Source: an uncultured Bacillota bacterium (GTDB lineage Bacteria; Bacillota; Clostridia; Oscillospirales; Oscillospiraceae). From it: 38,295 nt of DNA. Below, one piece after another: positions 4,464 through 24,800 of the stretch. The position numbers were made by a program, and so were the translations under genes. Every line of letters begins with the position of its first letter. Position 1 is the first letter of the stretch. The notes beneath the pieces were generated by a model that searched no databases, was not told the DNA's origin, and saw only the letters and a program-made list of their open reading frames with translations. Location of the stretch: positions 1 to 38,295 of the forward strand of contig CANDKT010000009.1 of the NCBI GenBank assembly GCA_947385365.1, written 5' to 3'.

Positions 4464-4464
4464 A

Positions 4465-5486
4465 AAAGCATACCTCCTCTCACGGGGACGGAAACCCTAC
4501 TTCATCGTAGGCTTAATGCTGCATGTGCTGTATGTGGAAGCATCCCCCCTCACGGGGACGGAAACGGTCTTGCGGTTGTGACAGCGACGGTGCTTCCGAA
4601 AGCATCCCACCCCCCTCACGGGGACGAAAACGTTGGCTCCTTCACGTTCGGCTGGTACTCCATCGGTAAACATTCCACTCCCCCCTCACGGGGACGGAAA
4701 CTCTTTGCCTATCGCGGCATCAAGTGTATATGGTAGGAAGCATCCCACGCCCCTCACGGGGACGGAAACACTGTCATAAGTGCTGTATGCTCCCTGCCGA
4801 TTCATTCCATTCCCCTCACGGGGACGGCAACTTCTTTGCATCCAAGTCATTAAAGTGCCACCACTCAAAAAACTCCCTACCCCTCACGGGGACGAAAACT
4901 CGAAGGTCTGTCCCTGGCTCTTGTGGATGGTCAGGATTCATTCTACTCCCCTCACGGGGACGGAAACAGACCACGGCAAGTGACATCAGTCGGTTCAGGC
5001 AGAGATGTATTCTCCACCCCTCACGGGGACGGACGCTCGCAATTTAGTCGCTTTGCGATGTCGATCACACCCCTCACGGGGACGGAAACCTGGAAAAATC
5101 CACTTGCATACCGCATCTTCTCCCCCTTACGGGGACGGAAACTGCCAATCCGATTAACGAAATCGCGTTTGCTACAGAAAACGTATCTCCACCCCTCACG
5201 GGGACGGCAGCTCTTTTTGGGTGAAACCCTGTTCTTGTCCCAGCGAAACATCCACTTCCCCTCACGGGGACGGAAATATCCAATAGGCGTTGTTGTGCAT
5301 AATCAGGTCAGGACCCCTCAATTTCCCCTCGCGGGGACGGAAACTCTCCGACAAAGTGCGCAGTCACTGTATAAGTGCAGAACGTGCCCACCCCTCACGG
5401 GGACGGAAACAGCAGCTCGTCTTGCTGTGCCTTGTTGAACCGGTGGCTCTCAAAACGTACCCCCACCCCTCACGGGGACCCGAAAC
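4465..5486 (+). CRISPR. CRISPR array 2: 16 degenerate repeats, 15 spacers
   Basis: Repeat 3' ends fall at 4495, 4565, 4631, 4701, 4769, 4831, 4899, 4967, 5036, 5089, 5142, 5211, 5277, 5344, 5410 and 5486. The repeat is the same as in array 1, but its first 13 bases (GAAGCATCCCACT) are altered in most units. CCCCTCACGGGGACGGAAAC is kept exactly or with one or two changes. Tag changes occur at 4631 and 4899 (ACGAAAAC), 4831 (ACGGCAAC), 5036, 5211 and 5277, and the final unit ends ACCCGAAAC. Two units are only 53 bp from the one before; others are 62-76 bp. The array runs straight into cas10. Confidence 0.95.
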
Positions 5487-5509
5487 TTATAAATGCAAGG
5501 AGACGCGGT

Positions 5510-6985: not shown

Positions 6986-8961
6986 GTCAACGCATCACGC
7001 TCCCTGTGCGGATGGAACTGCGTTCCGACGCCGTGTTCGGCTCCGGGTACAGCATCCCCGGCGGCGAGGACGTGGCCGTCTGCCGGAACGACGCCGGTCT
7101 GCCTTACGTCAAAGGCTCCACCTGGAAGGGCCTGCTGCGGGAGAGCCTGGAAAATCTGACCGCTTGGGGCGTCGGCGTCCCCGCCGACGTGGACGCCCTG
7201 ATGGGCGAACCCGGCTGGAACGGCTTGAGCGGCGGACGCCGGGTGCAGCTCACCGAGCTGTCCCTGCTCGACCCCCCGGACGACCCTGAAGACTGCTTCG
7301 CTCTGCGCGTCTTCACCAGCTTGGAAAACGGCGTCGTCAAAAGCGGTTCGCTGCGCACCGTGTCCTGCGCCCGCGCCGGTTTGACCTTCTCCGGGGAGAT
7401 CTCCTGCGACGAGACCGATCTGCCTCTGCTCCGGGACGCCCTGGCCGGGATCAAATGGGCCGGGACCCAACGAAACCGCGGCTTCGGACGCGTCCGCTTC
7501 ACCGTCGGGGACGCCCGCGCTTCCCAACTTGACGCCCCCGGCGTCGCCGGGACTTGCCTCCGCGTCCGGCTCCGCACCGAACTGCCCGTGGTCCTCACCG
7601 ACCCCGGCCGCAGCGACGGCAACTCCGCCGAAACTTACGGCTTCATCCCCGGCTCCGCCCTCCGGGGCGCGGCGATGGAAGCGTTGGCCTCCCGTGACCC
7701 CGCCTGGTTCGCCGCCCACAGAAAAGCCCTCCTGCACGCCCGCTTCCTGGACGCCGTGCCGGTTCCGGACCCGTCCCTGGTTCCCCTGCCCGCCCTGCGC
7801 GGCTTCTACGAGGACAAGGAGGAGTCCTGTTTAGAATGCGTCGTCCAGAACGGGGACTTCACGCCCCGCTTCAAACGCGCCAAATTGGGCGCGTTCTGCG
7901 CCTTGGACGGGGACGTCATCCGCGGCTGGACCGCCGCCACCGGCGGCGCGACTCGCATCCATCGGGGCGGAGACGGTCAGGACCCGCAGATGTTCCAGGT
8001 CCGCGCCCTCAGCGCGGGACAGGACTTGGAAAGCTACATCCTCTTGGACGAGACCCCCGAACTGGCCGGGACCCTAGCCCAGGCGTTGAGCGGGACGCTC
8101 TGGCTGGGCGCGGACCGCTACGCCGGGTACGGCAAGTGCCGCGTTCAGGTCGAAGCCGCCCCGCGCCCCGCGTGGCAGACCGCCTACGGTTTCCCGGACG
8201 GCTCCACGCCGGAACAGGAACTCTACCTGCTGGCCGTCTCCCCCTTCACCATGCTGGACGCCTTCGGCGAACCCTGCGGGTTAGACGAGACCCGCCTCAG
8301 ACAGCGGCTGGGCGTGGAAGAACTCACGGTACAGTTCTGCGCCACCGCCCTGTCCCAAGCGGGCGGCTACAACCGGACTTGGGGCTGTCGGGCTCCGTCC
8401 GTGCGGTTCTACGACCGGGGCAGTCTCTTCCACCTGAGCTGCAAACCCGCGCCGAAACTCGACGCCCTGCGTCAGATCCAGCGGGACGGCCTCGGCATAC
8501 GCCGGGAAGAAGGCTTCGGACAAGTGCTGTTCCTGCCCGCCGCGCGCGTGGACGGACTGCGCCGAAAGGCGAAGCTGGAACCTGCCCCCGACGCCGGGAC
8601 CAGTACGCAAACGCGGCTCCGCCGCGCCCGGTACCGCTGGGTCATGGACCACACCGGAGAACTGAACGCCTGCGGCCTGTCCAAGAGCCAGATCGGCACG
8701 CTCCAGTCGCTCTGCGAGAAGGCTATGTCCAAGGGCGGGGACTGGACCGAACTGGACGCGCACCTGAACCACAACCTGTCGAACCGAGGCGCGCTGCACG
8801 GTGAGCGGTTCCAAAAAGCGGACCGACTCATCCGGGCCGTGCTGGAACGGCCTCTCCGGGAGACGCTGGGACTGGAACGCTGCGGCGACAGCATGACGGA
8901 GCGGTTCGCGCTGCTGTGCCTGCTCTTCGACCACAGCCGTAAGGGAAAGGAGGCGGAGTGA
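6982..8961 (+). CDS. Cas7-Cas5(Csx10)-Cas11-like fusion
   Basis: A 659-residue fused RAMP protein. Residues 1-185 form a Cas7 domain: GGED (27-30), then YVKGSTWKG (42-50), and a Gly-rich RNRGFGRVRF near 163. Asp30 sits where Csm3-type subunits carry the target-RNA-cleaving Asp. Residues 190-535 look like Csx10, the Cas5 of type III-D: YGFIPGSALRG near 218, GADRYAGYGK near 375, GIRREEGFGQVLF near 505. Residues 546-659 are helical and resemble a Cas11 small subunit. Cas7-Cas5-Cas11 fusions are known from the type III-D variant of Synechocystis, and the rest of this operon matches that variant. The start is GTG 6982 in a GTGA overlap with cas10, preceded by GAGGAGGT. The Cas11 assignment rests on position and helical character only. 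Confidence 0.85.
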   Translation: MSQRITLPVRMELRSDAVFGSGYSIPGGEDVAVCRNDAGLPYVKGSTWKGLLRESLENLTAWGVGVPADVDALMGEPGWNGLSGGRRVQLTELSLLDPPDDPEDCFALRVFTSLENGVVKSGSLRTVSCARAGLTFSGEISCDETDLPLLRDALAGIKWAGTQRNRGFGRVRFTVGDARASQLDAPGVAGTCLRVRLRTELPVVLTDPGRSDGNSAETYGFIPGSALRGAAMEALASRDPAWFAAHRKALLHARFLDAVPVPDPSLVPLPALRGFYEDKEESCLECVVQNGDFTPRFKRAKLGAFCALDGDVIRGWTAATGGATRIHRGGDGQDPQMFQVRALSAGQDLESYILLDETPELAGTLAQALSGTLWLGADRYAGYGKCRVQVEAAPRPAWQTAYGFPDGSTPEQELYLLAVSPFTMLDAFGEPCGLDETRLRQRLGVEELTVQFCATALSQAGGYNRTWGCRAPSVRFYDRGSLFHLSCKPAPKLDALRQIQRDGLGIRREEGFGQVLFLPAARVDGLRRKAKLEPAPDAGTSTQTRLRRARYRWVMDHTGELNACGLSKSQIGTLQSLCEKAMSKGGDWTELDAHLNHNLSNRGALHGERFQKADRLIRAVLERPLRETLGLERCGDSMTERFALLCLLFDHSRKGKEAE

Positions 8962-8962
8962 G

Positions 8963-10219
8963 ATGGCCGCACGGTTTACTTACGCCGCCGTCTACCAGAT
9001 CGAAGCGGTCTGCCGCACGCCTCTGCGCACCGGCGGGCCGGAGGGCGAGGTGGAAGAGATCCTCCGCCGCCGGGATGGCAGAGCGTTTGTACAGGGCGCG
9101 TCCCTGGCCGGAGCTTTGCGGGGGTTCCTGCGCGACCCCGCAACCGCGGAAGCGCTCTTCGGAAGTCAGGACCGGGCCGGACATCTGATCGTCTCCGACG
9201 CCCTCTTCGACCGGGAGAGCGATCCGTTCACCCGTCCCCGGCTGCGCATCGACCCCCGCTCCGCGACCGGGGCCGCCGGCGGTAAATTCGACGTGGCCCA
9301 CATGGGCGCGGGTTCCAAACTGCGCTTCACCCTGGTCTGGCAGGGACCCGCTGAGCGGAAAGAAGAACTGGAAACGGTCGAACAGCTCCTGAGCTACCTG
9401 AACGCGGGACTCATCCGGCTCGGGGCGCAGAAGTCCAACGGGTTCGGACAGCTGACCCTGACCGTCCGCCGCCGCCGGCTGGACCTCACCGTTCCCGCGG
9501 ACCGGAGCGCGTGGCTGGACGAGGATTGGGACGGGGAACCGTTCCCTCTGCCCGCCGCGCCGGACGCCGGACGCGTGACCTTCACCGTGACGGGACGCGC
9601 CGACAGCCTCCTGGTCAAGAGCGCGCCGGAGGTCACAGAGGACGGCAAACGCTACACCCCGAACCTCTCCGAGAACGGGACCGCTCTCCTGCCCGGCTCC
9701 TCCGTCAAAGGCGCGGTCCGCGCCCGCGTGGACTACATCGCCAAGACCTTAGGGCTGGGACAGGACCTGACCGACGCGTACTTCGGTCGCATGGCGCGTA
9801 AGGGCGAGGACAACGGTCTGGCCGGGCAGGTCTTCTTTGAAGACGGCGTGCTTTCCGGACCGCGCGCCAAGATCAGCCGCATCCGCATCGACCGCTTCAC
9901 CGGCGGCGTGCAGCGGAAAGGGCTGTTCACCGAGGAACCGCTCAGCACGCCCTTGACGTTGCGCGTCAGCGCACCGGCGGAACCGCCCCTGTGCGCACTG
10001 CTGACATACGCCCTGCGGGACTTAGGGCTGGGGCTGTACGGCCTGGGCAGCGGCTGGGCCGTGGGACGGGGCCGGGTGGCAGTCGAAACCCTGGAGATCT
10101 CCGCCCCCGGCGGCCAACAGGCCGCGCTCCGGTTCGCGCCGGAGGGTCGGGTCGAGGCCGACGACCCCGACGGTCTGCTGAACGCCTGGCTGAACGCTCT
10201 GGAGGAGGTGCGGCAATGA
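8963..10219 (+). CDS. Double Cas7 (Cas7-2x) backbone subunit
   Basis: A 418-residue protein with two Csm3-like RAMP domains in tandem. Domain 1 (about 1-175) has RTPLRTGG, FVQGASLAGALRG and the Gly loop LGAQKSNGFGQL. Domain 2 (about 195-390) has ALLPGSSVKGAVRA, ISRIRIDRFTGG and the Gly loop LGSGWAVGRGRV. It would supply two neighbouring crRNA-binding backbone positions. In domain 1 the region that normally holds the catalytic Asp reads GGPEGEVEEIL, with Glu where Asp is expected, so domain 1 may not cleave; domain 2 has EDGKRY nearby. It begins 1 nt after the previous stop with AAGGAGG upstream, and ends in an ATGA overlap. Confidence 0.85.
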   Translation: MAARFTYAAVYQIEAVCRTPLRTGGPEGEVEEILRRRDGRAFVQGASLAGALRGFLRDPATAEALFGSQDRAGHLIVSDALFDRESDPFTRPRLRIDPRSATGAAGGKFDVAHMGAGSKLRFTLVWQGPAERKEELETVEQLLSYLNAGLIRLGAQKSNGFGQLTLTVRRRRLDLTVPADRSAWLDEDWDGEPFPLPAAPDAGRVTFTVTGRADSLLVKSAPEVTEDGKRYTPNLSENGTALLPGSSVKGAVRARVDYIAKTLGLGQDLTDAYFGRMARKGEDNGLAGQVFFEDGVLSGPRAKISRIRIDRFTGGVQRKGLFTEEPLSTPLTLRVSAPAEPPLCALLTYALRDLGLGLYGLGSGWAVGRGRVAVETLEISAPGGQQAALRFAPEGRVEADDPDGLLNAWLNALEEVRQ

Positions 10220-10593
10220 AAAGGGAACCCTTAAACGTGCCGGAGGCCCTGCGTCAGGGCCGGACGCTGCCCTACGCGCTGATTTATAGCCTGAGCCGCA
10301 TGACGCTTGGCCCCACGCCGGAGTCCGTGGACCTGGACGAGCTGATCGAAGCCCGCTTCTTCAACGCTACGGAGGAAGTCCGCATCTTCCGGGACGAGAC
10401 CGGCCTGCAAGCGGTCCGGTTGGTCCAGGAGGCGGACGACGTCACCTTGAACGAGTCCTTCTCGCTGGCGAACCGGGCCGCGTTCGGCGGGACCTTGACG
10501 CGGACCCAAACGCTTGACTTTGACGACGACGGACAGGCGTTTATCGCCTGCACCCGGCTGACCGGCTGGAAGGAGGGTCCCCCAAATGCCTAA
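10216..10593 (+). CDS. csx19: Csx19-like type III-D accessory subunit
   Basis: A 125-residue protein with LDELIEARFFNATEEVRIFRD in the first half, resembling the head of the Csx19 (TIGR03984) family, which is confined to type III-D loci. The C-terminal half is Asp-rich (DFDDDGQAFIACTRLTGW). In the Synechocystis III-D variant, Csx19 is a structural subunit of the complex. The start at ATG 10216 overlaps the Cas7-2x stop, and its own end overlaps the next start by 8 nt, so translation is probably coupled. Identification rests on the short motif plus position between the two Cas7 genes. Confidence 0.68.
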   Translation: MKREPLNVPEALRQGRTLPYALIYSLSRMTLGPTPESVDLDELIEARFFNATEEVRIFRDETGLQAVRLVQEADDVTLNESFSLANRAAFGGTLTRTQTLDFDDDGQAFIACTRLTGWKEGPPNA

Positions 10594-12475
10594 CGACACC
10601 ACGGTCCGCGCCCCTTACAACTTCGTTCCCTTCTCCAACAAGATCCTGCCCTACCAGCGGAACGAACTCCCCGCTCACGACGCCGTCGACCCTGCCCTGA
10701 AAACCGGCGAGATCCACGTCACGTTCACGGCGGATACGCCGGTGTTCGTCTCCGACGGGCGGAAAAACGACCCGCATTTCTTCCGCGGCCCTGACGGGAC
10801 GCTCCAGATCCCCGGCTCCAGCGTCCGGGGGATGATCCGGGCGAATATGCAAATCTTAGGCTTCGGTCTGGTCCGGGTCGGGGAGGATATGGAAGACCAG
10901 CGGGCGTTCTACCGCAAAGTCGCCGACGCCCGCCAAAGTGTTGGCGGGGAACTGAAAAATTACTACGACGCTACGCTGGCGGTGCAGGTCCAGCGCGGCC
11001 CGTCCGGAAAAAGCCGCGCCATCCCGCGGAACGTGAAAGCGGGGTACCTCCGGAAGGAGGGCGGGAAGTACTACATCCAGCCGGTGAGCGGCAGCTACCT
11101 GCGGGTGTCTAAGAAAACGCTGGCCAACGCCGGGCTAGACCAACGCTACGCGCAGACGATCCCAGTGCGGTACCGCGCCGACGGGGAGCGGGTCACGGCG
11201 GTGTTCCGCGCGAACGGTCCGGACACCGGTCGGAACGGCGTGCTGCTCTGCCCAGGCGTGGATATCAACGGGGATGGGACCCGCGGCAAATCGCCGAAAC
11301 CACCCGCGCACCGTTACATCTTCCCCCCGGCGGACGAGACGGCGGACCCGGTCGGCATCTCCAAAGAAGACGAGTTGGCTTACGCGGCGGACTGGGAGAA
11401 CCGGGAAAACAGCCTGAAAGGCGGGACGAAACTCAACGGACAGACGGTCCGATACGACCCGGCGTTCTGGAAACTGCCCGAGGAAGGACAGGAAAAGCCG
11501 GTGTTCTACATCCAGCACGACGGCCATGTGTTCTGGGGGATGACGCTGTTCCTGCGCATCGGCTACCGGAACACGCTGCGGGAAGGTTTGCCCAGAAGCC
11601 ACCGGGAGAAGCAGGACCGAACGGATTTCCTGGACTGGCCGCGGGCGATTTTAGGCTGGGCGGGGGACGAGACGTCTTACCGTTCCCGCGTATCGTTCGG
11701 GGACTTCCGCGCGCAGGGGGACCCGAAGGAATCGGCTCCATTCAAGACGGTCCTGAGCGCGCCGAAGATCAGCTACTACCCCGGCTACGTGGTCCACGGG
11801 GACCACTACAACAAGAGCCGGAGCGGAGAGGGCAAAGACGACGGGTTCCGGCTCCGGGGCTACAAGCAGTACTGGCTCAAAACGGCCCAGCCGGAACCTG
11901 CGGAGAAGGACAACGTGGCGTCCCAACTGCGCCCGCTGCCCATCGGAACGAAGTTCCGGGGCGTCATCCGCTACAAGAACCTCAGGCCGGAGGAATTGGG
12001 GCTGCTGCTGTGGGCCATCCGGCTGGAGGAGGGCTGTTACCAGAGCGTGGGCATGGGCAAGCCTTACGGCTTCGGCCGGGTGAAGGCGTCCATCGACGCG
12101 CTGCGGGAGTTCGACCTTGGAGGTTTGTACACGCCTCAGAACCTCTGCGCGGCCCCTGCCGCCGCGCCGGACGGCGCGGTACAGGCGTACATCGACGCCT
12201 ACGACGCCGCGGCGTCTCAGGCGATGCACTTGAAGAAACCCAAGAAACGTCCGTCCGTCACCAGCTTGGAGGAGATCAAGGACTTCTTTTACCTGAAACG
12301 AACGATTCGGGCGCAAGACGAGGTCAGCTACATGACGCTGGCCGAGTACCAGAACACGCGCTGGCCGTTGCCGGACACGGCGTCGTTCCGCAGGGAAGCC
12401 GAAGAGGCCGCTCTGGCAGCTGCGCCGGGGGACACGTCCGTGGAAGCCTTGATAAAGCGGATCAATCACAGGTAG
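10586..12475 (+). CDS. Cas7 with large insertion (TIGR03986-type RAMP protein)
   Basis: A 629-residue RAMP protein that opens with APYNFVPFSNKILPY, the hallmark of the TIGR03986 family found in type III-D. LQIPGSSVRGMIRANMQ (about 72-88) is the RAMP loop, and GMGKPYGFGRVKAS near 490 is the C-terminal Gly-rich loop. Between them lies an insertion of some 300 residues typical of the Cas7-insertion subunit, which caps the 3' end of the crRNA in the known III-D variant. DPHFF ahead of the RAMP loop includes an acidic residue that could be the cleavage Asp. AAGGAGGG precedes ATG 10586. No frameshift is seen. Confidence 0.85.
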   Translation: MPNDTTVRAPYNFVPFSNKILPYQRNELPAHDAVDPALKTGEIHVTFTADTPVFVSDGRKNDPHFFRGPDGTLQIPGSSVRGMIRANMQILGFGLVRVGEDMEDQRAFYRKVADARQSVGGELKNYYDATLAVQVQRGPSGKSRAIPRNVKAGYLRKEGGKYYIQPVSGSYLRVSKKTLANAGLDQRYAQTIPVRYRADGERVTAVFRANGPDTGRNGVLLCPGVDINGDGTRGKSPKPPAHRYIFPPADETADPVGISKEDELAYAADWENRENSLKGGTKLNGQTVRYDPAFWKLPEEGQEKPVFYIQHDGHVFWGMTLFLRIGYRNTLREGLPRSHREKQDRTDFLDWPRAILGWAGDETSYRSRVSFGDFRAQGDPKESAPFKTVLSAPKISYYPGYVVHGDHYNKSRSGEGKDDGFRLRGYKQYWLKTAQPEPAEKDNVASQLRPLPIGTKFRGVIRYKNLRPEELGLLLWAIRLEEGCYQSVGMGKPYGFGRVKASIDALREFDLGGLYTPQNLCAAPAAAPDGAVQAYIDAYDAAASQAMHLKKPKKRPSVTSLEEIKDFFYLKRTIRAQDEVSYMTLAEYQNTRWPLPDTASFRREAEEAALAAAPGDTSVEALIKRINHR

Positions 12476-12487
12476 GAGGGAGTGCCT

Positions 12488-13801
12488 ATGGCAAAGAAAA
12501 TCGTCCTGTTTCTCAGCGACCCGAAGTCCGGCGACCCGAGGACCTACCAGTGTCCTGACGGCAATCCGGTCCAAGGCGTCCAGACCAACGAGGCTCCGGT
12601 GAAGTACCTGCTCCGCGCCCATACGGGGATCAAAACAATCCTCTGCGTGGTCACGCCGCTGGCCCAGGCGACCTTGCCGATTCTCCGGGAAGCGGTCAAG
12701 GCGCAGGCCCCGGCGGTGATCGTCAAGGAGATCCCCTTCCAGGATGGGGCGGACTTCGCCGCCGGACCGCTGGCGCGGATCATGGAGGAAGTGCAGAAAG
12801 GCGACGAGATTCTGCTGGAACTGACCGGCGGACCGCGGGACGCGATTATGCAGCTGCTTCTGACCAGCCGCGCGCTGTCTTACAGCGGTATCCCAACCGC
12901 CGGGGCGGTGTACGCGAACCTCGGGGCGAAGGAGATCGTGGACTGTTCCCAGCTGATCCGGTTCTTCGACCTGGTGGGCGGGATGCAGGAATTGACCAGT
13001 TTTGGCCGCGTGACCGCTCTGCGGGCGTACTACCAGGACCGGACCGAGCCGGAAATCACCGCGCTGCTGGACGCGATGGAGCGGTTGAACGAGTCCATCA
13101 CCCTCTGCCGCACCGGGAAGATCGACCAGCATATCGCGGCGTTCAACGCCGCGATGGAGTCCGCCCAGAGCTGTTCGGACCCGTTGATGCGGGCGTTGCT
13201 GCCTGCGTTCCGGGCCAAGTTCGGCCGGAAATTGAACGTGCCCGGCTTGATCCGCTGGTGCCTGGGCAGCGATATGATCCAGCAGGCGCTGACCATCTAC
13301 AAGGAGCGTATCGCGGCCTACATCCTGAACACGCGGAGCGGCACGTTAGTCGAACCGGTCCCCCGCGCGCGGCTGACGGAGCGGGAGGCGAAATCCTTGG
13401 ACCTCTTCCTGGACGCCAAAAAGGACTACGAGACCGAAGAGGAAATCCGGTTCCGTATGCTGCTGAACCTGGGCAACTTGAAAAAGTACCAGTTCTACGA
13501 CGAAACGACCGGCGTCTGGCAGGTGGACCCGGCGGTGCTGACGTTGGAGTACCTGGACGAGCTTGCGCCGCGGAGCTACCACTTCCAGATCCACTGCGCG
13601 ATACCCAAGCTGCGGGCGATCCTGATGGACTACCAGTACATCCGCATTCTGCGGAACATGACGAACCACGCCAACGATGAGAGTACCAGCGGGGAGCTGC
13701 TGGAATACCTGGTGAAGCAGGGGTACCCGCAACCTGAGGAGGCGGGGGTCCCGGAAGTGAAACAGGTGCTGAACCAAGCGTTGGACCACTTGAAGACTTG
13801 A
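12488..13801 (+). CDS. CARF-HEPN ribonuclease of the Csm6/Csx1 type
   Basis: A 437-residue putative effector activated by cyclic oligoadenylate. The N-terminal Rossmann-like CARF domain (about 1-160) carries LTGGPRDAIMQ (112-122), the counterpart of the ligand-loop motif of CARF proteins. The C-terminal part is helical and contains the HEPN RNase motif Rx4H at Arg389-His394 (RNMTNH). Csm6/Csx1 proteins degrade RNA non-specifically when Cas10 makes cOA, which fits the HD-less Cas10 here. ATG 12488 is chosen over GTG 12482 because AGGAGGG lies 7 nt before it but only 1 nt before the GTG. The gene sits inside the cas transcription unit, 12 nt after the Cas7-insertion stop. Confidence 0.83.
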   Translation: MAKKIVLFLSDPKSGDPRTYQCPDGNPVQGVQTNEAPVKYLLRAHTGIKTILCVVTPLAQATLPILREAVKAQAPAVIVKEIPFQDGADFAAGPLARIMEEVQKGDEILLELTGGPRDAIMQLLLTSRALSYSGIPTAGAVYANLGAKEIVDCSQLIRFFDLVGGMQELTSFGRVTALRAYYQDRTEPEITALLDAMERLNESITLCRTGKIDQHIAAFNAAMESAQSCSDPLMRALLPAFRAKFGRKLNVPGLIRWCLGSDMIQQALTIYKERIAAYILNTRSGTLVEPVPRARLTEREAKSLDLFLDAKKDYETEEEIRFRMLLNLGNLKKYQFYDETTGVWQVDPAVLTLEYLDELAPRSYHFQIHCAIPKLRAILMDYQYIRILRNMTNHANDESTSGELLEYLVKQGYPQPEEAGVPEVKQVLNQALDHLKT

Positions 13802-13817
13802 AGTAGGAGGACGTGAC

Positions 13818-14558
13818 GTGCTGAGCCGCTTCGAATTTTCCATGCGCCCCGACGGTCCGTGCCGTCCTCAGTCGGAGTGGGCGTACCACCTGTACGCCGC
13901 GCTGCTGGAACGCCTGCCGCCGGAGTTCGCCCAGCGCGTCCATGAGGACGGGGCCTCTCCCGTGAGTCAGTACCTCTGCGTCCGGGAGGACACGCTGTAT
14001 TGGACCGTGAACCTTCTGGGCGAGGCGGCCGAAGCGTTGGCCGGACCGGCGTTGGAGCAATGCCAACCGTTCCAGCTCCGGAAGAACGGCGTGGTCCTGA
14101 CGCCGGAGCTGGAACGGCGGGAGCAGATCGCCGATGTGGAAGAACTGTTCCGGCAGGGTGCCGCCAGAAGCCGTCTCCACCGCTTGGAGTTCCGCACCGC
14201 CGCGGCGTTCAAGAGCCAGGGACAGTACCGCAGTCTTCCGACGCCCCGGCTGGTCTTGCAGAGCCTGATGAAGAAATGGAACGGCTGTTTCCCGGACTGT
14301 CCTATCGTGGACGAGGACGGGGAGGGAATGGACGCGATGGCCGGGAAGTTGAACTTCCATGCGTTCTCGCTTTGGAACGCGGCCTATGTACTCAAAGGAC
14401 AGTCCATTCCTGGGTTCCGGGGGACCCTGACGGTGGAAAACAAACTGTCCGGGTTCCACCGGGAGCTGGCCGACGCGCTGCTGTTCTTCTCCGGGTTCGC
14501 CGGAGTCGGGATCAAGACCGCCTTGGGTATGGGCGGCGTCCGGCATCAGAATCTATAA
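13818..14558 (+). CDS. cas6: Cas6 CRISPR RNA endoribonuclease
   Basis: A 246-residue protein with the Cas6 C-terminal signature SGFAGVGIKTALGMGGVR (about 224-241), the Gly-rich loop that binds the repeat hairpin. The N-terminal start LSRFEFSMRP fits the first ferredoxin-like fold. It would cut repeats at the 3' foot of the CCCC-TCAC-GGGG hairpin, leaving an 8-nt tag, and so serve both arrays. The start is GTG 13818 with AGGAGG 7 nt upstream. An N-terminal His near residue 24 (YHLY) may be catalytic, which is usual but not universal in Cas6. A terminator follows within 6 nt, so this is the last gene of the main cas unit. Confidence 0.92.
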   Translation: MLSRFEFSMRPDGPCRPQSEWAYHLYAALLERLPPEFAQRVHEDGASPVSQYLCVREDTLYWTVNLLGEAAEALAGPALEQCQPFQLRKNGVVLTPELERREQIADVEELFRQGAARSRLHRLEFRTAAAFKSQGQYRSLPTPRLVLQSLMKKWNGCFPDCPIVDEDGEGMDAMAGKLNFHAFSLWNAAYVLKGQSIPGFRGTLTVENKLSGFHRELADALLFFSGFAGVGIKTALGMGGVRHQNL

Positions 14559-14563
14559 AAAAC

Positions 14564-14590
14564 CCCCGCTCCTGACGGAGCGGGGCTTTT
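14564..14590 (+). terminator. Intrinsic terminator after cas6
   Basis: CCCCGCTCC pairs with GGAGCGGGG around TGAC and is followed by CTTTT. It separates the effector genes from the CARF/sigma-like pair. Confidence 0.88.
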
Positions 14591-14618
14591 CAGAACGAAC
14601 CAGAAAGGAGCGCTTTTC

Positions 14619-15248
14619 TTGAAGAAATTCTTTACCACCGTGTCCTTGCAGCCGCTGCCGGGGGACCTGTCCCTGATGTCCTACCAGGCCGTAGGCAATT
14701 CCAAGCTGCAAATGGACGCGGAGACCAGTTTCCCCATCCTGACGGCGGTGAACGGCTACGCCCAGCCCGGAGAGGACTTCCGGCTGATCGCGGTGATGCC
14801 GGAGAACCCGGCGACGCTCCGGAACCGGGACGTACTGTCCGCGCAGCTGACGGAGCTGTGCGCGCGGCGGGAGCTGACCTGTTCCGCCGGAGTGGAGACG
14901 GTGCTGGCGGAGGACTCCCAGGAGGTAGCCGCCCACGCGCGGACGTTTTTGAAGCTGCTGGACTACGTGGGCGACGACGATGAACTGTTCGTGTGCATGA
15001 CGTTCGGAACGAAACCGCTGTCGCAGGCGATGCTTCTGGCGGTGCAGTACGCCTACCGGGTGAAGCGGAACGCGTCGATTTCGTGCGTGGTGTACGGGGA
15101 GGTGGACCGGAGCGGTCCGAAGCCTTGGACGAAGGGGAAGGTGTACGATATGACCGCGCTGCCCCGGTTGGACGAGATCGTGCATCTGCTGGCCCAGCGC
15201 GGGGTCTCCGATCCCAAAGCGGCGCTGAACTCCATCCTGTCGCTGTAA
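14619..15248 (+). CDS. Stand-alone CARF-like protein
   Basis: A 209-residue protein with an apparent Rossmann-like CARF fold. DDDELFVCMTFGTKPLSQAMLLA spans about 119-141, where FGTKP (129-133) is at the place of the TGGTK/THGFR ligand loop of CARF families, followed by a strand ISCVVYGEVDR. No HEPN, nuclease, protease or DNA-binding domain is visible in the remaining sequence. It could be a ring nuclease, a cOA sponge or a sensor that controls its neighbour. The start is TTG 14619 with AAGGAG 8 nt upstream. It lies 13 nt before the sigma-like gene, strongly suggesting co-translation, and sits behind the cas6 terminator, so the pair may be expressed separately. CARF assignment is by motif and context. 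Confidence 0.65.
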   Translation: MKKFFTTVSLQPLPGDLSLMSYQAVGNSKLQMDAETSFPILTAVNGYAQPGEDFRLIAVMPENPATLRNRDVLSAQLTELCARRELTCSAGVETVLAEDSQEVAAHARTFLKLLDYVGDDDELFVCMTFGTKPLSQAMLLAVQYAYRVKRNASISCVVYGEVDRSGPKPWTKGKVYDMTALPRLDEIVHLLAQRGVSDPKAALNSILSL

Positions 15249-15261
15249 GGAGGGGGTTCGT

Positions 15262-16068
15262 GTGAGCAGACAAGACCAGCCGAACATGAGGGAAACGTTA
15301 GAAACCCTGTGCGTCCAGTGGGCGGCGTTAGGGCCGGAGGACGAGGGAAAGAAGCTGGACGTTCAGAGCCAAATCTTTGAGATCGTGTTCGACCTGTTCA
15401 AAGGACGGGAGGACGAGATCGTCACCGTTTTCCTGAACGATTGGCAGAAGTTCGACCCCGCGCGGGGTTCCGCCTACGACTTTTTCTCGGTCCGCCTCCG
15501 TTACCAGAAACTCAACGCCTACCGGAAACAAAAAACGCATCAGGACCGCACGGTCACGAAGCTCATCCAGCTGGACAGCGGCGAGGAAGAAGATCCGACG
15601 GATAGACTTCCGGCGGGTTGGGACTCCGACCCGGAGCTTTTGCTGATGTTTGACGCCGCCGCCTGCGAGCTTCTGATCGGCATTCTGGAACTGCCCAAAC
15701 GGCTCCGGGGGCAGGCGAACAACCCGACACGGCATCGTTACTTCCGGCTGTTTTTCACGAACAACGCGGTCACGTGCCTGCACGGCTTCGGCGTGCCGGA
15801 GAGCTGGCTCCGGAGAGAACGGGACCTGTTCGCGGCGATGCAAGAGGAGTTCCTGGACTTCTTCCTGCGGGAACACTGCCGCACCATTCCGGACATCTGC
15901 CGTTCCCCGCTGAAACTTCACGGGGAGCTGGTGGAAGGGCAGAGCATGGAGGAGACAGCACTGCCCTTGCCGGGGGACGTGTACGCCAGCTACCTGAACG
16001 TAGGCGAGAACGCGGTGAGCCAACAGAAGAAGTTCTACCTGAACGAGATCCGGAACTGGCTGTCCTGA
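15262..16068 (+). CDS. Sigma-70-like factor linked to type III CRISPR
   Basis: A 268-residue protein. Residues 50-90 read like sigma-70 region 2: a helix EIVTVFLNDWQ, then FDPARGSAYDFFS (64-76), then RYQKLNAYRKQK, matching the family pattern W..FDP.RG.F..Y......R..D..R. The last 30 residues (YASYLNVGENAVSQQ from 241, then KKFYLNEI) resemble the region 4 helix-turn-helix. The middle (100-230) is longer than in ECF sigma factors and unrecognised. It would recruit RNA polymerase to a dedicated promoter set. The start is GTG 15262 with AAGGAGGGGG upstream. Pairing with a CARF protein in a type III locus recalls the CalpL-CalpT-CalpS system, where cOA frees a sigma factor, but no protease or anti-sigma gene is seen here. 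It may instead be a sigma-like DNA-binding protein without polymerase contact. Confidence 0.6.
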   Translation: MSRQDQPNMRETLETLCVQWAALGPEDEGKKLDVQSQIFEIVFDLFKGREDEIVTVFLNDWQKFDPARGSAYDFFSVRLRYQKLNAYRKQKTHQDRTVTKLIQLDSGEEEDPTDRLPAGWDSDPELLLMFDAAACELLIGILELPKRLRGQANNPTRHRYFRLFFTNNAVTCLHGFGVPESWLRRERDLFAAMQEEFLDFFLREHCRTIPDICRSPLKLHGELVEGQSMEETALPLPGDVYASYLNVGENAVSQQKKFYLNEIRNWLS

Positions 16069-16086
16069 ACCGCCGTCAGGCGGTTC
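16067..16086. terminator. Short hairpin between convergent sigma-like gene and metY
   Basis: GAACCGCC pairs with GGCGGTTC around GTCA, overlapping the stop codons of both convergent genes. There is no T-tract on either strand; it may act weakly in both directions. Confidence 0.5.
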
Positions 16087-17368
16087 AACGGACGGCGGCA
16101 AAGCCCTTTTCCAGATCGGCGAGGATGTCGTCGATATGCTCCGTGCCGATGGACAGGCGGATGGTGTTGGGTTTGATGCCCTGATCCAGCAGCTCCTGCG
16201 CGGAGAGCTGGGAGTGGGTCGTCGTGGCCGGGTGGATGACCAAAGACTTCACATCGGCCACGTTGGCCAGCAGAGAGAAAATCTCCAGGCTGTCGATGAA
16301 CTTGTGCGCTTCCGCCTGTCCGCCCCTGATCTCGAAGGTGAAGATGGACCCGCCGCCATTGGGGAAGTACTTCTCATACAGCGCGTGGTCCGGGTGATCG
16401 GGCAGGGAAGGGTGGTTGACTCGTTCGACTTGCGGGTGCCGGGCGAGGAAGTCCACCACCTTCTTCGTGTTTTCGGCGTGGCGTTCCACGCGCAGAGATA
16501 AGGTCTCCACGCCTTGGAGGAGCAGGAACGCGGCAAACGGCGAGAGCGTCGCGCCTGTGTCCCGCAGGAGAATGGCCCGGATGTAGGTGACGAAGGCGGC
16601 GGGACCGGCGGCGTCCGCGAAGGAAACGCCGTGATAACTGGGGTTTGGTTCCGCGATGGGCTTGTATTTGCCGCTCCGCTTCCAGTCGAACCTGCCGCCG
16701 TCCACGATGACGCCGCCTAAGGTCGTGCCGTGGCCGCCGATGAACTTGGTGGCGGAGTGGACCACGATATCCGCGCCGTGTTCGATGGGCCGGATCAGGT
16801 AGGGCGTGCCGAAGGTGTTGTCGATGACCAGAGGCAGACCGTGGGCGTGCGCGATCTCCGCGATGGCGTCGATGTCCGGGATGTCGGAGTTGGGATTTCC
16901 TAACGTCTCCAGGTAGACGGCCTTCGTGTTGGGCTGGATGGCGGCGGCGAGCTGCGCCAGATCGTGGGCGTCGACAAAGGTCGTGGTCACGCCGAACTGA
17001 GGCAGCGTGTGGCTGAGCAGATTGTAACTGCCGCCGTAGATGGTCTTCTGGGCCACGATGTGGTCCCCGGCCTGAGCCAACGCCTGGAGCGTGTAGCTGA
17101 TGGCCGCCGCGCCGGAGGCGGTCGCTAACGCCGCCACGCCGCCTTCCAACGCCGCGAGGCGTTTTTCCAGCACGTCCTGGGTGGAGTTGGTCAGGCGTCC
17201 GTAAATATTCCCCGCGTCCGCCAGACCAAACCGAGCCGCGGCATGGGCGGAGTTCCGGAACACGTAGCTTGTGGTCTGGTAGATCGGCACCGCGCGGGCG
17301 TCGGTGGCCGGGTCAGGCTGCTCCTGGCCGACATGGAGCTGGAGGGTCTCGAATTTGTAGCTGCTCAT
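16085..17368 (-). CDS. metY: O-acetylhomoserine sulfhydrylase
   Basis: A 427-residue PLP enzyme of the Cys/Met metabolism family that makes homocysteine from O-acetylhomoserine and sulfide. It begins SSYKFETLQLHVGQ and has TTSYVF, the phosphate-binding YGGSYNLLSHTLPQ region, DNTFGTPYLIRP, and the PLP Lys208 in SATKFIGGHGT. Length and motifs fit MetY rather than the shorter cystathionine gamma-synthase. ATG 17368 is the start because it begins the conserved N terminus and has AAAGGGG upstream; the frame is open further upstream without a plausible site. It is transcribed alone from a consensus promoter through a leader of about 195 nt. It runs toward the CRISPR locus and is unrelated to it. 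Confidence 0.95.
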   Translation of the reverse strand: MSSYKFETLQLHVGQEQPDPATDARAVPIYQTTSYVFRNSAHAAARFGLADAGNIYGRLTNSTQDVLEKRLAALEGGVAALATASGAAAISYTLQALAQAGDHIVAQKTIYGGSYNLLSHTLPQFGVTTTFVDAHDLAQLAAAIQPNTKAVYLETLGNPNSDIPDIDAIAEIAHAHGLPLVIDNTFGTPYLIRPIEHGADIVVHSATKFIGGHGTTLGGVIVDGGRFDWKRSGKYKPIAEPNPSYHGVSFADAAGPAAFVTYIRAILLRDTGATLSPFAAFLLLQGVETLSLRVERHAENTKKVVDFLARHPQVERVNHPSLPDHPDHALYEKYFPNGGGSIFTFEIRGGQAEAHKFIDSLEIFSLLANVADVKSLVIHPATTTHSQLSAQELLDQGIKPNTIRLSIGTEHIDDILADLEKGFAAVR

Positions 17369-18820: not shown

Positions 18821-21800
18821 TCAGGTTTCCAGGAAGTTTTTCAGCATCTGGGCGACCTGTGCGCGGGTCGCTTGCCCCTGCGGTCCGAGCTGCCCGTTGT
18901 CGTAGCCGCTGAGGATGCCTTGGCTCACGGTCCACTGGATAGCTTCCTTGGCGTAGTTGCTGATCTGACCGGCGTCCGGGAACTGGGACAGGTCCTCGTC
19001 AATGGAGGGGGACCCGGCGTAACGCCAGAGCATCGTGGCCAACTGCTCACGGGTGATGTTGCCGTCCGGGTTGCTGCCGTCGCTCACGCCGTTGGCGACC
19101 GCCCAAGCCATGCTCTTTTCGTACCAAGTCGCGCCGCCGTCGATCTCCGCGCCGTTGAGGCGCGCCAGAACTGTCACCAGCATCGCGCGGGTCATGGGGG
19201 CGTCGGGGTGGAAGGTGTCCTCGCTGGTGCCGGAGAACAGTTCCCGGGCGGTGACGAACGTGATGGCGCGGTCGGCCCAGTGCTGGGCGGAGACGTCCGC
19301 GAAACGTCTGCTGTTGTCCACGAGTTTCACGGTCGTGCCGTCGGACACTTCCACGATGAGACCGGTGTCGGTGGTTTGGGAGGTTTTGAGGATCTCCGCG
19401 GAGCCGTCGTCCTTGACCAGGAGCGCGACCGTACCAGGTGTGGTACTGGCGGGGATCTCCACTTTCACGGGGGTTTTGCTGCCTGTTTTCACGGTCACGG
19501 CGGGAGCGGTTTCCGCATCCTTCGCAGGTTCGACCTCGGGGACGGGCAGGAGGATGGTCTGGTTTTCCTTCTGCGCGGCGCTGACCGCGGAGGCGGGCAG
19601 TTTGACTTCGGCGGTCATTTTGCCTTCGGCGTCGGTTTTGACCGTGGCGGACGCGCCGTTCTTCTGGGTGATTGTGGTCACGCTGGAGCCGTCTTTTTTG
19701 GTCTCGACCTTGGTCTGAGAGCCGTCGGGGTACTTAGTGGTCTCTGTGACGGTTCCGGTGGTTTTGTTTTCCGTTTTCGTTGTAGTGGAACCGTCTGGAT
19801 TCTTTGTGGTCGTGGTGGTGGTTGTGGAGGAACCGCCGGAGCTGTGCGAACCGCCGGAGCTGCGCAGGACGCCGGAGGCGGTGAGGAGCAGATCCCCTGT
19901 GATTTTTCCTTCTGGGATGGTGATGTTCCCCTCGGAGGGGTCGTACTCAAAGTCAGAGAAGCTCTGACCGTTCATCGTGATGGAAATGCTGCTGGGCAAA
20001 CGGTAAGAGCTGCTCTCTGTTTGGAGCTTGCCGGTGTAGGATTTGCCTTCTTCCACGGAAGCGGGGCCTTCGGCCTTGAGGTTTGTCAGGTCGTAAGTCA
20101 CGGTGTAAGTCTTTGCGGTCTGGATCGCCTTGAAGGTGGCGTTGACGGTGACGTCCTCGTCGGGCATGGAGAAGGTACGGACGTTGCCTGTTCCCGCGAG
20201 GTCGACCGGAGAGCCGTTGGTTTGAGTAACGGTGAGTGTGTCCAACTCGTAGCCGGCGTCGGGTTTCAGGGTAAGGGTGATCGAAGTACCTTTGCCGGCC
20301 TGGACCGCGCTGCATTCGATGACGCCGTTTTTCAAGTCGGGAGCGAGGTTGATCTTATGGAAGTCCTGGTCGTAAGCGGGGACGGTGACTTGGACCGGCG
20401 CGCCTGCTTTGTGGGTACTGGTTTCGGCGATACGCACCTGATATTCGCCGTTGGGGAGGCCGGTGACTTCCTCGCTTGCCACAGGGGTCCAGTTGCTGGC
20501 GGTCTGGGCTTTGTACTCATATTTGGCGTAGTCGGGGCCGAAGCCGGTCAGTTTCCCGTCCTGATTGCTGGCAGCCGTAGGCTTGACGCCGAAGATGGTC
20601 TGGCTGGGGACAGAAGGACCTTCAGCTTTTTCGACGGCCTGGGCGCAGGCCGCGGAGCGTGTGCCTTCGTAGTAAGTGCTGGGGTCGGCGGTCACGTCCA
20701 CGGAGAGTTGCGCGCCGATGTCTGCTTCAGTCAAGGTGTAGGTCTTGCCGGTCGCGCCGGGGATCGGTTCCGCGCCGCGTTTCCACTGGTAGCTCAACTT
20801 ATCCTTCCCTGCGCGGGTCATTTCCAGCTGTTCGATGTCCGCTTCCAGCGTTTGGCCAAACGTTGGCGTAGTGTTGCGGATGGCGGCGTCGTTTTCCAGC
20901 GCGCGGAAGACCTGGACGGTGATACGTTGTTTCACGGTCTGGTTTTCCTCGGCGGCGATCTCCAAGGTGAGCGGGCCCACATTGGTTCCCGTTGCGTCGG
21001 GGACGGCGGTGACGGTGAGCTGATTTCCGCTGCGGCTGAGCGTGACTTTGCCGTCTGTTTCGGCGCGGGTCCAGTTCACGTTCTGGTTGGAGGCGTTTTC
21101 TGGTTCCACTTCGGCGGAGAGCGTCAGGCTGTGATTGGGATGGGACTCATTGGTGTAGACCTTGAGGACGGTGTTCTCGTTCACAGGCGTACCGTTTACC
21201 TTGACCGTGAGGCCGGTGACGGGGACCGGGACAGGTTCCGCATCTTTCAGGTACCAGCGGAGGGTTTCCTGTTCTGCTCTGGGGTCGAAGGTCTTGCCGC
21301 CGGAGTAGGAGAAGGCGGAGGGAGCCACGCCGGTCGGCGTGCAGATGTAGAAGGTATCTTCTTGGATGTTGTCGAGTACGACGTTGGTGGAACCGGCGAT
21401 CTTGTCTGTGGTGACGGTCAGGACTTTTCCGGCGGGCCAAGCCGCGGTACCGCCGCCGGTGACTTCATCGACGGACAGGTCCTGGTTGAAGCGGAAGAGT
21501 CCGCCGTCCGAGGTATCGAGGCGGATGGTATCGGCCTGGAGCGTTCCGCCGTTGAGGGTGCCGCGTTTGAGGACGATGAGGCTTTCGCCGACCTTGTTAC
21601 CGGGTTCCAGGCAGCCGCCGTTGAGCGCGGCGTTGACTTCCGCGCCGTCCACGAGGATCGAGGCGGTACCGGACACGTTTCCGGAGTCCCGGCTCCCGCC
21701 GTAGACGGGGCCGTGTCGGAGACCTTCGCCGAGGGTGATGGTGACGTTCCCGGTGACATTTTTGCTGCTGGTATTTCCGCCGTAGATATTGCCGCCGATG

Positions 21801-24800
21801 CTGGCGCCGGAGAGGTTCATGGTGACGTTGCCGGTTGTCGTGCCGCTGTAGGAGGTCTGCACGACTGCGGTGACGGTCCCGCCGGAGAGGGTCAGGTGGA
21901 CGTCGCCGGTGGTACTGCCGGTGTATCCGGCGGCGTAGACGTTCCGCCAGGAGCCGGACTGGATGGTCAGATTGGTACCTTCGGTGACTGCGGTGGCGCG
22001 GCCGCCGCCTGCCACATTGAAGAAGTAGCTGCCGGAGGGGTTACAGGTGAGGTCTTCTCCGAAGACGACGCGGTTTCCGTTGGCCGCGATGTAGCGCAGC
22101 TTGGCGGTATCCAGGGTGATGCTCATATGTTCCAGGTGGGTATCGCCGTGGAAGCCGAAGTTAAACTGGGAGACGATACCTTCCGTTCCGGTTGCGCTGG
22201 TGAGGAGGACGGGGTAATCATGAGTGGGAAGTTCGGTATCGCCGCTGAAGGTGACGTTGCCGGTGAAGACGATACTGCCTTGCGTACCGTCCGGGGCGTT
22301 CCGCATCAGCTTGCCCAGTTTCAGGTAGGCGGAGTCCAGCGTCTGGACGGGAGTTTCTGGGGTCCGGCCATTGTCGCGGTTGGTTCCGCTGACGCCGTTG
22401 ACGTAGATTGTGTAGTGGGTGATGTGGCGGTTGATGATCTCAAGGCGGCAGTCCGCGCTGGCCAGCTGGTCTGGTCCGGCGGCGTAGCGGACGTAATAGA
22501 CGCCGATGTCCAAGCCGGGGATCTCCGTTGTTCCGGCGGGGACGCTGGTGTAGGTACTGTCGCTTTCCTCCCGGTATTCGTAGGCTTTCCCAGCGTCGAG
22601 ACCGGTGATCGTACCGGTGTCCAGTTCCTGTTCGGGCTGAGTCACGCGCAGGCCGTCGGGCGCGTCAGGCAGCTGCACCAGTTCGATTTTGCCTTCTTGG
22701 GTCAGGTCCGCGCAGCAGCGGTAGATGGGGATGACCCCGCTGACCGGCGAGACCAGGCCGGATTGCAGGAGGGTTCCGTTGTAACCTTCGCTGTCGGTGA
22801 CGTCGGGTTCCATCGTCATAGCCAGGACGTTCGCGCCGGTCTGGTTCATGGGGAAGACGTAAGCGCCTTCCGGGAACACGACGGCGCGTTCTGCGGTCAG
22901 CTGGGCTTCGTTGGAGGAACCCACGTACTGCTGGAGCATAGCGGCGGAGTTTGCTTCCAGCTCGTACCAGGAGACTCCGTTTTTGGTCATCAGCTCCGCC
23001 ACGGTGTCGGACCACGCCTCGCCCTTAGGGATGACGTAGGCGGTCGGGCGGGGTCTGGAACGTTCCGCGATGTCGTAGCGGTAGATCGTACCGGAGGCGT
23101 TCGCGTTGACGGGGGTCCCGTCGCCCAGGTTCCAGGTGGGCCGGGAGATGACGTAGCCGTTGGTTTTGGAAGCCGAGTGGGTGAGGACGACGAGGTCGTC
23201 TTCTTGGTAGAACCCGCCGTTTTGGATCAGGTTGTTCCGGCCTTCGGCGACGGCGCGGCGGACGTCGTCGGCGTGCGCGGCTACGTAGTCGATCAGGCTC
23301 TCGACGACGACGTATTGGGAGAGGACGCGGCGTTCATAGAAGGACAGGCCCGCGCCGATCCCGCGCGTCTCGATCAGGAAGGAGAGGCTCCCATAGAGTC
23401 CGTAGTAGGCGCGGCCGATGGCGTTGTTGACGGTAGAGGCGTAGCTTCCGTAGTTGTAGGGGCGGAGGTTCTGGGCAGAGGCGGCTTCAAAGGCGTTGTG
23501 GACCATATCCTGCGCCATTTCGTTGACGGCGGCGGAGGAGTTCAGGCTCCCAGCCGCGCCGACCTGGACGTCGTCGAGGGTAGAGCTGGTGCCTGTGGTG
23601 GTGGCGTTGAACTCATGCCCGTCGATTGCGACCTCAGGCAGGAACAGGTTGTAGATATGGTGGACGTTTTCGATCTCCTTGCTCTGGACATACAGGTGGT
23701 CGCGGTTCATGTCGGTGTTTTGCGCGACGTTGGCGCGCTGGTAAGGATTCGCGCCGTCCCCGTTCAGGCGGGGCACGACGTAGACGTTGACGGCGTTCAG
23801 GACCTCATCGCCATACGTGCCGTTCAGGGCTTTGATGACGGCCAGCGCGCCTTCTCCGCCGGCTGGTTCGTTGGCGTGGATCTCGGCCTGGTAGTGGATG
23901 GTAGGTTTTCCGTTGCTCCGGACCAGGGCCGCCGCTTCTTCCAGCGTACTCGCTCCGGAGAGGTCGGTCTGGGAGAAGACGACGACGGGGACATCGTAGT
24001 GGTAGACGGGGGTCTGGCCGATGATGTAGAGGTACATGGAGTCGGCTTCGCCGTCCAGTTCGCGCAGGAAGGCCATCATCTCGTCCTGAGTGGTCTGACG
24101 GTGGGTTTCTCTTTGGAGGGTGAAGGCGGGGGTTTCGAACACATGGGCGTAGTCCGGCCACAGGCTGGGTGAGGAGGGCAGGAGTTTTTCCAGGACCTCG
24201 TCGGTATACTGGCTCACGGTGGTGGTGGGTTCGAACCCGTTGCCGTTTCGTTTACCGGGGTCGATCTGGAGTGTTTTCCCGGTTTCGGAATCCTCTTGGG
24301 TGAAGATGAGGTTTTTCTTTACGGTGTAAAAGGATTCGCCGGAGGCTTTGTAGCAGTAATTGCCCACGGCGAGGCCGGGGTAGAAATAGGTGGTCTGACC
24401 GTCTTCGGTGCGGACGGAGGCGGGGGCGATCTCGCTTCCGGATTCGAACCCGCTGGACAGCGCAACGGTCAAAGTTTCCGGCGCGACCAGGCTCAATCCG
24501 GCCTGATCCTTCCCGCCGGAGATGGTCCAGTACTTCACGCCTTCGGCGGTGGTGACGGTCATCTGTTCCGTGCCGGAGGCGGTGTAGACGAAGGCGTTAT
24601 CTGCGGTGGTATCGGGGGCGGTGAGGTAGGCTTTGTTATAGGGGGTGCCGTCGAGGAGGAGTTTTGTGCTGCCGGTCACGTTGGACAGGGAGAGGGCGGC
24701 GTTTTCTCCCAGGCGGAGCGTGCCGCCTCCGGTGAAGCGTTCCACGGCCAGGGTCCCGCTGCCGATGGCGATCTCGTCGTGTTGGGCGGCGGTCAGTTCC

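Follow-up and report, generated by a model that had tools for sequence, protein, structure and literature searches.

A stand-alone CARF gene paired with a divergent sigma-70-like gene in a type III-D CRISPR locus: a candidate nucleotide-gated transcription switch

Gene Content of the Type III-D Locus

The window analyzed here is the whole 38,295-nucleotide (nt) stretch of contig CANDKT010000009.1 from an uncultured bacterium of the Oscillospiraceae. It carries a type III-D CRISPR locus with cas10, a Csx10-like gene, two more cas7 genes, one small gene of the effector operon, a CARF-HEPN gene and cas6, followed by two genes encoding a stand-alone CARF protein (P0001) and a sigma-70-like protein (P0002), which are the subject of this report. 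The initial annotation had described the last two as tightly spaced and each preceded by a ribosome-binding site, and the open reading frames, their coordinates, the gap of 13 nt and the AGGAG-type sites upstream of both were all found as described. The type III-D assignment also held, since cas10, the Csx10-like gene, cas7, CARF-HEPN and cas6 are matched by NCBIfam or PADLOC profiles. The features are as follows (L, G, and C numbers below are our labels for loci, genomes, and contigs, G000 being the window's genome).

14619 to 15248, plus strand: P0001, single-domain CARF protein, proposed cyclic oligoadenylate sensor (TTG start, 209 amino acids; PADLOC CARF2--CARF, E 2.7e-66)
15262 to 16068, plus strand: P0002, divergent sigma-70-family protein, proposed CARF-controlled sigma factor (GTG start, 268 amino acids; family profile and fold)
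5375 to 6985, plus strand: cas10, likely start at 5513 (PADLOC Cas10d, E 2.2e-102; AGDD cyclase motif; no HD motif in the first 60 residues)
6982 to 8961, plus strand: Csx10-like cas5/cas7 protein of type III-D (NCBIfam Csx10, E 4.6e-20; PADLOC Cas7/Cas5_IIId)
8963 to 10219, plus strand: cas7 of type III-D (PADLOC Cas7_IIId, E 5.4e-51)
10216 to 10593, plus strand: small conserved effector-operon gene (homologues in the same place in related loci; no Pfam match)
10586 to 12475, plus strand: cas7, TIGR03986 (NCBIfam, E 1.8e-92)
12482 to 13801, plus strand: CARF-HEPN ribonuclease, Csx1/Csm6-like (PADLOC CARF_HEPN, E 1.2e-37; RNMTNH motif)
13818 to 14558, plus strand: cas6 (PADLOC Cas6_IIIa, E 3.2e-39)
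14564 to 14585, minus strand: hairpin 3' of cas6
2166 to 2885: CRISPR array 1
4470 to 5480: CRISPR array 2, with degenerate repeats

A terminator had been annotated behind cas6. The hairpin is indeed present at 14564-14585, but it is terminator-like on the minus strand only, so that transcripts of the cas operon may read through and include the pair. A scan of 4300-16100 found no standard sigma-70 promoter. In the locus, gRAMP models gave only partial matches far under cut-off, and the Cas7-11/Csx29/Csx30 architecture was not found.

Cas10 of type III systems makes cyclic oligoadenylate (cOA) on meeting target RNA, and CARF domains bind this product. The Cas10 palm motif reads AGDD, EGDD, DGDD, or AGDE in all 16 genes inspected (L026 being represented by the C-terminal part of a split gene), and no HD motif lies in the first 60 residues of these 16 proteins. 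The four variants are listed among the likely active cyclases, and an HD domain is given for 3% of type III-D systems, in the available part of the source (PMC11229360). Judging from the retained cyclase motifs and the lack of HD, signaling by a nucleotide is the expected mode of action of the locus.

P0001 is a Single-Domain CARF Protein

As the initial annotation had it, P0001 is a CARF protein without an effector domain: the single-domain PADLOC model (PDLC01821) covers residues 1-208 with the E value given above, a strong profile match that marks this 209-residue protein as CARF. TIGR02221 matched P0001 only at E 0.0027, far under its cut-off, and Pfam gave no match. The P0001 family profile reaches solved CARF structures of the APE2256 family (E 8e-4), where TAL-repeat proteins score higher, via many weak repeated pieces only. 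In an alignment of 21 CARF members, L17, Y22, F38, P39, I40, N69, T128, K132, Y159, G160, and D177 are invariant, and G130 and P133 are nearly so. The conserved T-x-G-T/S-K-P block resembles the ligand sites of other CARF proteins; together with the Y-G block, it makes P0001 a putative cOA binder. No relatives of P0001 were detected in the viral contigs searched.

P0002 Contains Sigma Region 2

Searches with the single P0002 sequence gave no Pfam, PADLOC, or PDB match and only E 0.17 in NCBIfam, and at E 0.01 neither plasmid nor phage records yielded a relative. The family profile of P0002 matched RpoD-type sigma rows at E 2.4e-7 with null reversed controls, while ECF-type rows reached probabilities of only 7.6, 0.9, and 0.1; the rows compared were 14 of 22 sigma sequences, namely six RpoD-type (four RpoD and two other) and eight ECF-type, L057-L059, L066, L068, L070, L089, and L091 being omitted. 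Sigma factors accounted for 43 of the 45 PDB matches of this profile, which also picked out the RpoD genes on five other contigs. The region 2-like block annotated at residues 64-76 is there (FDPARGSAYDFFS), and in the predicted structure residues 11-91, which include the annotated 50-90, match the sigma region 2 fold of CnrH and SigK. Thus, sigma region 2 is present in P0002, as backed by the profile and more weakly by the modeled fold.

The C-terminal part is more divergent. A region 3.2-type SLD-P-I-G-E-D linker is aligned to RpoD in the family alignment and is weak in P0002 itself. The annotated C-terminal helix-turn-helix (HTH) amounts to a predicted helix pair (238-245 and 249-267), but it was not recognized as a standard region 4, for which the family gave no profile match. 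Residues about 186-208 carry a well-conserved ERDLF..FLDF..CRT block that looks specific to the P0002 family. The best named matches were the NCBIfam SigI models, which hit up to 4 of 15 family members weakly (best E 1.4e-5) and did not hit P0002.

Region 2 is the main core-binding part of a sigma factor. Because region 2 is better kept than region 4 in P0002, one could imagine that this protein is no sigma factor and, on signal, occupies the RNA polymerase core and stops transcription as an abortive-infection effector. We consider this very improbable, since the positioned bipartite motif described below, which precedes genes of these loci, points to promoter-directed use. Binding of P0002 to core RNA polymerase and initiation at promoters are predicted, the latter from this candidate motif.

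Conservation of the CARF-Sigma Pair

The pairing of the two genes is borne out by a neighborhood survey. In all 23 loci examined, a sigma-like gene lies directly 3' of the CARF gene, with a gap of -8 to +31 nt in 22 loci and 141 nt in one, which speaks against chance; these sigma-like calls comprise 15 clear P0002 homologues, seven made by profile comparison, and one made by position and one motif. When P0002 was searched first, clear relatives were found in G091, G014, G387, and G398, and, with the window, a CARF gene was directly upstream in five of five cases. The CARF protein alone led to 18 of the 23 loci. A search of genome contigs with an alignment of five CARF proteins gave 20 loci, four of them on contigs of the P0002-first relatives (L014, L021, L022, and L025), and the next gene encoded a P0002 homologue in 14 (hmmsearch E no higher than 1.4e-35, with four of these 14 being members of the search profile). 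In the other six (L026-L031), whose CARF proteins are 24-30% identical to P0001, the next gene encodes a larger sigma-like protein of 376-570 amino acids, the one in L029 being truncated where its contig stops. Across the class, 16 of the 391 genomes searched had matches, including two further stand-alone CARF genes (G824 and G902), each of which overlaps a sigma-like gene by 4 nt, with cas10 following the pair; matches in 13 other genomes sit in longer open frames of 411-670 amino acids and are outside the 23-locus count.

Homology between the P0002 family and the larger sigma-like proteins (seven rows: L026-L031 and L052) extends from the SLD linker through the C-terminal HTH (hhalign probability 86, E 5e-6; reversed controls 0.1), this comparison being weak (probability 14) with only five rows of the larger proteins. 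The structure model of the larger proteins is poor (predicted local distance difference test score, 58.6). The sigma-like call in L053 (G902) relies on its position and a region 2-like block only, with no database match. Weaker P0002 matches in G011, G156, G178, and G171 (E 9.6e-4 to 0.0092) were excluded; the places in G011 and G156 hold unrelated-looking proteins.

The pair occurs in varied contexts: after cas6 in the window and L012; between CARF-HEPN and cas6 in L013, L014, L017, L018, and L024; between cas7 and cas6 in L015, L019, and L021; and away from cas genes in L022. This last pair is an orphan beside a kinase-vWA-PP2C operon, with a recombinase-like gene upstream (L022/L009, 11160-15833). 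No type III locus was found in its genome, G014, where a Cas10-palm match on contig C39 is under cut-off and without cas neighbors. In G387, a CARF-HEPN-CARF-sigma cluster is on one contig and a set of cas genes on another. Close cas10 genes (E 5.8e-86 or better) occur in six of the 394 genomes of the order, and the pair is found in three of the six (G000, G091, and G398); no such CARF was found in G134, G389, and G521. L019 and L021 were considered as loci in which the pair would be the only effector and did not qualify as clear-cut, since, as judged by eye, a gene for 607 amino acids precedes cas10 in L019 and Csm-like genes lie upstream in L021. In a distant lineage, Csx20-type genes adjoin the pair (L028, 11778-12134, PADLOC Csx20 E 4e-32; L027, 9492-9905, by eye), and two GTPase-like genes, judged by eye, lie directly upstream of the pair in L031 (2-1660).

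Pairwise distances among the CARF proteins correlate with those among the sigma-like proteins after the cas7 distance is removed (partial r 0.43; partial Mantel test, p 0.002; based on 12 of the 15 core loci, as L013, L022, and L025 had no intact cas7). Some CARF proteins cleave their ligand. P0001 might accordingly be a ring nuclease or buffer of cOA, with the sigma-like protein regulating the cas operon on its own and the two sharing an operon without contact, and a motif before cas10 (see below) would fit plain autoregulation of this kind. The adjacency in all 23 loci, one of them without cas genes, and the covariation beyond cas7 speak against this arrangement, and we regard it as quite unlikely.

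A Promoter-Like Motif in Pair-Bearing Loci

A bipartite pattern, CCTGAA-N18-GA(G/T)TAAG, was spotted while reading intergenic DNA and took the form CCCTGAA-N17-CGA(G/T). Exact CCCTGAA-N17-CGA occurs at 18 sites in 16 pair-bearing stretches; other spacers of 10-25 give 0-4 sites, and none of 200 letter-permuted patterns reached 18 (mean 0.48, largest 7), figures that are descriptive because the motif was derived from the DNA in which it was counted. Less dependent on that derivation are the sites outside the nine seeds of the motif, which lie in L013 (963 and 1028), L021, L132, and L133, two of those in L132 being near-copies of the window's, and the genome-wide counts given below. The window itself has two sites.

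3002 to 3048, plus strand: promoter-like site, CCCTGAA-N17-CGAGAAG
3106 to 3152, plus strand: promoter-like site, CCCTGAA-N17-CGAGTAAG

In an exact search of the 394 genomes with CYCTGAA-N17-CGAGWA, the two highest counts were those of G000 (five) and G398 (four), both pair-bearing; 48 genomes have any such site, and the backwards-read control never exceeded three. The other pair-bearing genomes G091 and G387 have none and one, respectively. When the pattern was relaxed slightly (C or T at position 2, a spacer of 17-18, C/GGA), a site was present at most 161 base pairs (bp) upstream of cas10 in 7 of 10 pair-bearing loci (L012, L013, whose cas10 is incomplete, L014, L016, L017, L021, and L024). 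It was not found there in the window, L019, or L020, where the available sequence is limited to 208 bp, nor in either of two pair-less type III-D loci (L100 and L101) or any of seven distant-lineage loci. Motif scores of at least 14 also occur twice in the distant-lineage locus L028, elsewhere than before cas10. A motif scan with 36 hits counts four places twice (L021/L133), and two of its four control hits (L099) lie on the contig of L025, itself in the core list.

These sites may alternatively belong to another regulator, or be a leader-like element at array borders that merely travels with the loci, in which case the targets of the CARF-sigma pair would lie elsewhere. CRISPR-like repeats occur within 600 bp upstream of about 21 of 31 listed sites (a figure combined from three repeat scans), often 60-260 nt away, and downstream of only one, and the operons behind the motif often begin directly after a CRISPR array in either repeat direction (L133, L021, L024, L014, and L020). 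These observations count against a promoter role and have slightly lowered our confidence in the switch model proposed below and in its fuller version. On the other hand, the upstream repeats are found in either orientation (e.g., forward before L021 3037 and reverse before L021 12807), whereas a leader would keep to a single end of its array; about 10 of the 31 sites have no repeats in reach (e.g., L013, L132, L016 20356, and L017 11723); and one of the two pair-less loci lacking a site before cas10 has an array nearby by eye. We therefore still favor the motif as a promoter for the operon behind it, with the array-border element a serious rival that we judge rather unlikely.

Genes Behind the Motif

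A gene of about 120 amino acids (MKxVLWISRHxMT...) has a site just upstream in G000 (contig C18), G398, L015, and G091 (site L014 13807, gene C13:68628), a variant site before it in L018, and a site 220-290 nt upstream in L024; in L023, it is next to the CARF gene. Only 2 of 198 genomes of the family contain this gene, G000 and G091, both with the pair, while the third pair-bearing genome of the family, G014, is without it. Identification with Csx20 was not supported (E 0.05 in one of six, hhalign probability 0.5, no PDB match below E 0.1), and that the product is a Csx20-like ring nuclease ending the signal is our guess.

In G398, the sites precede a vWA, PIN/kinase, and PP2C triad (kinase and PIN under the Pfam cut-offs), an operon of DUF697, MBL, a 354-amino-acid protein, and Hsp70, and a LRR gene followed by a topoisomerase-like gene (by eye). 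A similar triad adjoins the orphan pair in G014 (pairwise BLAST against G398, E 3e-45, 2e-26, and 5e-30), and in L017 a weaker site precedes a homologue of the PIN/kinase N-terminus (E 6e-44). Small hydrophobic peptides are encoded behind sites in L012 and L024. In the window, both sites precede the gene at 3224-4360, which has a paralogue at 118-1671.

3224 to 4360, plus strand: gene 82 nt downstream of the second window site, secreted and CHAP-like by eye, no Pfam match
118 to 1671, plus strand: paralogue with Ricin-lectin (PF14200, E 1e-19) and M23 peptidase (PF01551, E 6.2e-17) domains

Both paralogues look secreted by eye, flank CRISPR array 1, and are alike in their upstream DNA and signal-peptide region. 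Two motif copies at the end of contig C18 are the presumed upstream sites of the 118-1671 gene. Contig C18 (L132) shares 48 nt with window positions 53-100; positions 1-52, the start of the window, are what we take to be Illumina adapter-like sequence, and C18 seems to end in a similar adapter, so that the two contigs are probably neighbors. Apart from these genes, a minus-strand open frame of 2363 amino acids lies at 18821-25912.

The functional link between CARF and sigma, which the initial annotation had offered as an inference, gains a candidate regulon, while cOA binding, direct contact, and the direction of control are still predictions.

Proposed Mechanism

On balance, we think it somewhat probable that cOA binding to the CARF protein frees the sigma factor, which then activates transcription of the cas operon and of a local regulon; we infer the ligand binding, the CARF-sigma contact, and the promoter use. 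Cas10 of type III-D without an HD motif makes cOA on meeting target RNA, as established for the family. In a resting cell, the CARF protein would act as an anti-sigma factor that keeps its partner inactive. On activation, a CARF dimer would bind cOA and release the sigma-like protein, which would bring RNA polymerase to the CCCTGAA-N17-CGA(G/T) sites. Its targets would be the cas10 operon (positive feedback), the gene of about 120 amino acids, local defense-like operons, and secreted proteins, including the M23 peptidase in the window's genome, and the outcome would be a CRISPR-triggered transcription program alongside the CARF-HEPN RNase. A fuller version, in which the second messenger gates the sigma factor directly with no protease or third protein, and the regulon is a dedicated one of cas10 feedback, the small partner (maybe a ring nuclease), and defense or lysis genes such as vWA-kinase-PP2C and the secreted M23 peptidase, is tentative, and we hold it slightly below even.

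The main rival concerns the sign of control. The sigma-like protein may be inactive alone owing to a degenerate region 4, and a ligand-loaded CARF dimer may be the co-activator that completes promoter binding; the unrecognizable region 4 and the family-specific block at about 186-208 would suit such a role. In the available parts of the sources, however, CalpT-CalpS and Csx30-CASP-sigma act by release from inhibition, and sigma-I, which also has no sigma-4 domain, works with its own C-terminal domain. We consider co-activation unlikely, if worth serious attention. Anti-sigma release is preferred by analogy with CalpT and Csx30, and this choice is uncertain.

Significance and Comparison with Known Systems

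Many type III CRISPR effectors are toxic enzymes. If the proposed release is true, RNA sensing would here be turned into a promoter-specific transcription program in a single step, and adaptive immunity could use such a compact receptor-sigma pair to switch on chosen genes. It would also assign a role to a family of stand-alone CARF genes. The candidate promoter makes the idea directly testable with a reporter, and a two-gene switch from cOA to transcription would serve as an RNA-sensing tool.

The closest known system is CalpL-CalpT-CalpS, in which a SAVED-Lon protease sensor cuts a separate anti-sigma protein and releases the sigma factor (PMC12751052). As in the proposed pair, type III cOA ends in sigma release and a transcriptional response, according to the part of that report available. 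Here, a bare CARF sensor stands beside the sigma gene: the locus proteins scanned by profiles (5375-16068) gave no match to a SAVED-Lon protease sensor, and no Lon-like protease or anti-sigma gene was found among them, as the initial annotation had stated, nor any other third gene.

Csx29-Csx30-CASP-sigma of type III-E is also a CRISPR-controlled sigma system. The CASP-sigma sites lie inside its own locus, one before an EcsC-like membrane protein (PMC10028731), and here a DUF697/EcsC-like gene is behind the motif in G398. CASP-sigma is controlled by protease cleavage of Csx30 and, as far as the available part of this source goes, without a second messenger, unlike the proposed pair. It resembles ECF sigma factors, whereas the profile of the P0002 family is closer to RpoD-type rows than to ECF-type ones. 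Type III-E has Cas7-11, whereas the window locus has separate cas7 proteins and cas10.

RsiG-(c-di-GMP)2-WhiG offers a precedent for a cyclic nucleotide that directly gates a partner-sigma complex (PMC8325347). It differs, in what the source at hand describes, in the coiled-coil RsiG, in the nucleotide, and in being developmental rather than immune, and its nucleotide arms the anti-sigma protein. SigI of Bacilli and Clostridia likewise combines region 2 with a non-standard C-terminal domain, and the -10 motif of sigma-I promoters, CGWA, resembles the CGA(G/T) found here (PMC10575876). In the same partly available source, RsgI holds SigI and an A-tract forms the -35 element of SigI promoters, and the SigI matches in the P0002 family are weak as described above. 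Csa3, a CARF-HTH protein, couples CARF to transcription control; as far as its description was available, the DNA-binding domain is fused to CARF and no sigma factor is involved.

A direct CARF-sigma-70 pair had no earlier description among the open-access literature matches listed, and an earlier mention elsewhere is possible. Judging from these comparisons, the CRISPR-to-sigma theme is already known, and what seems to be new is the direct CARF-sigma pair with its own proposed regulon.
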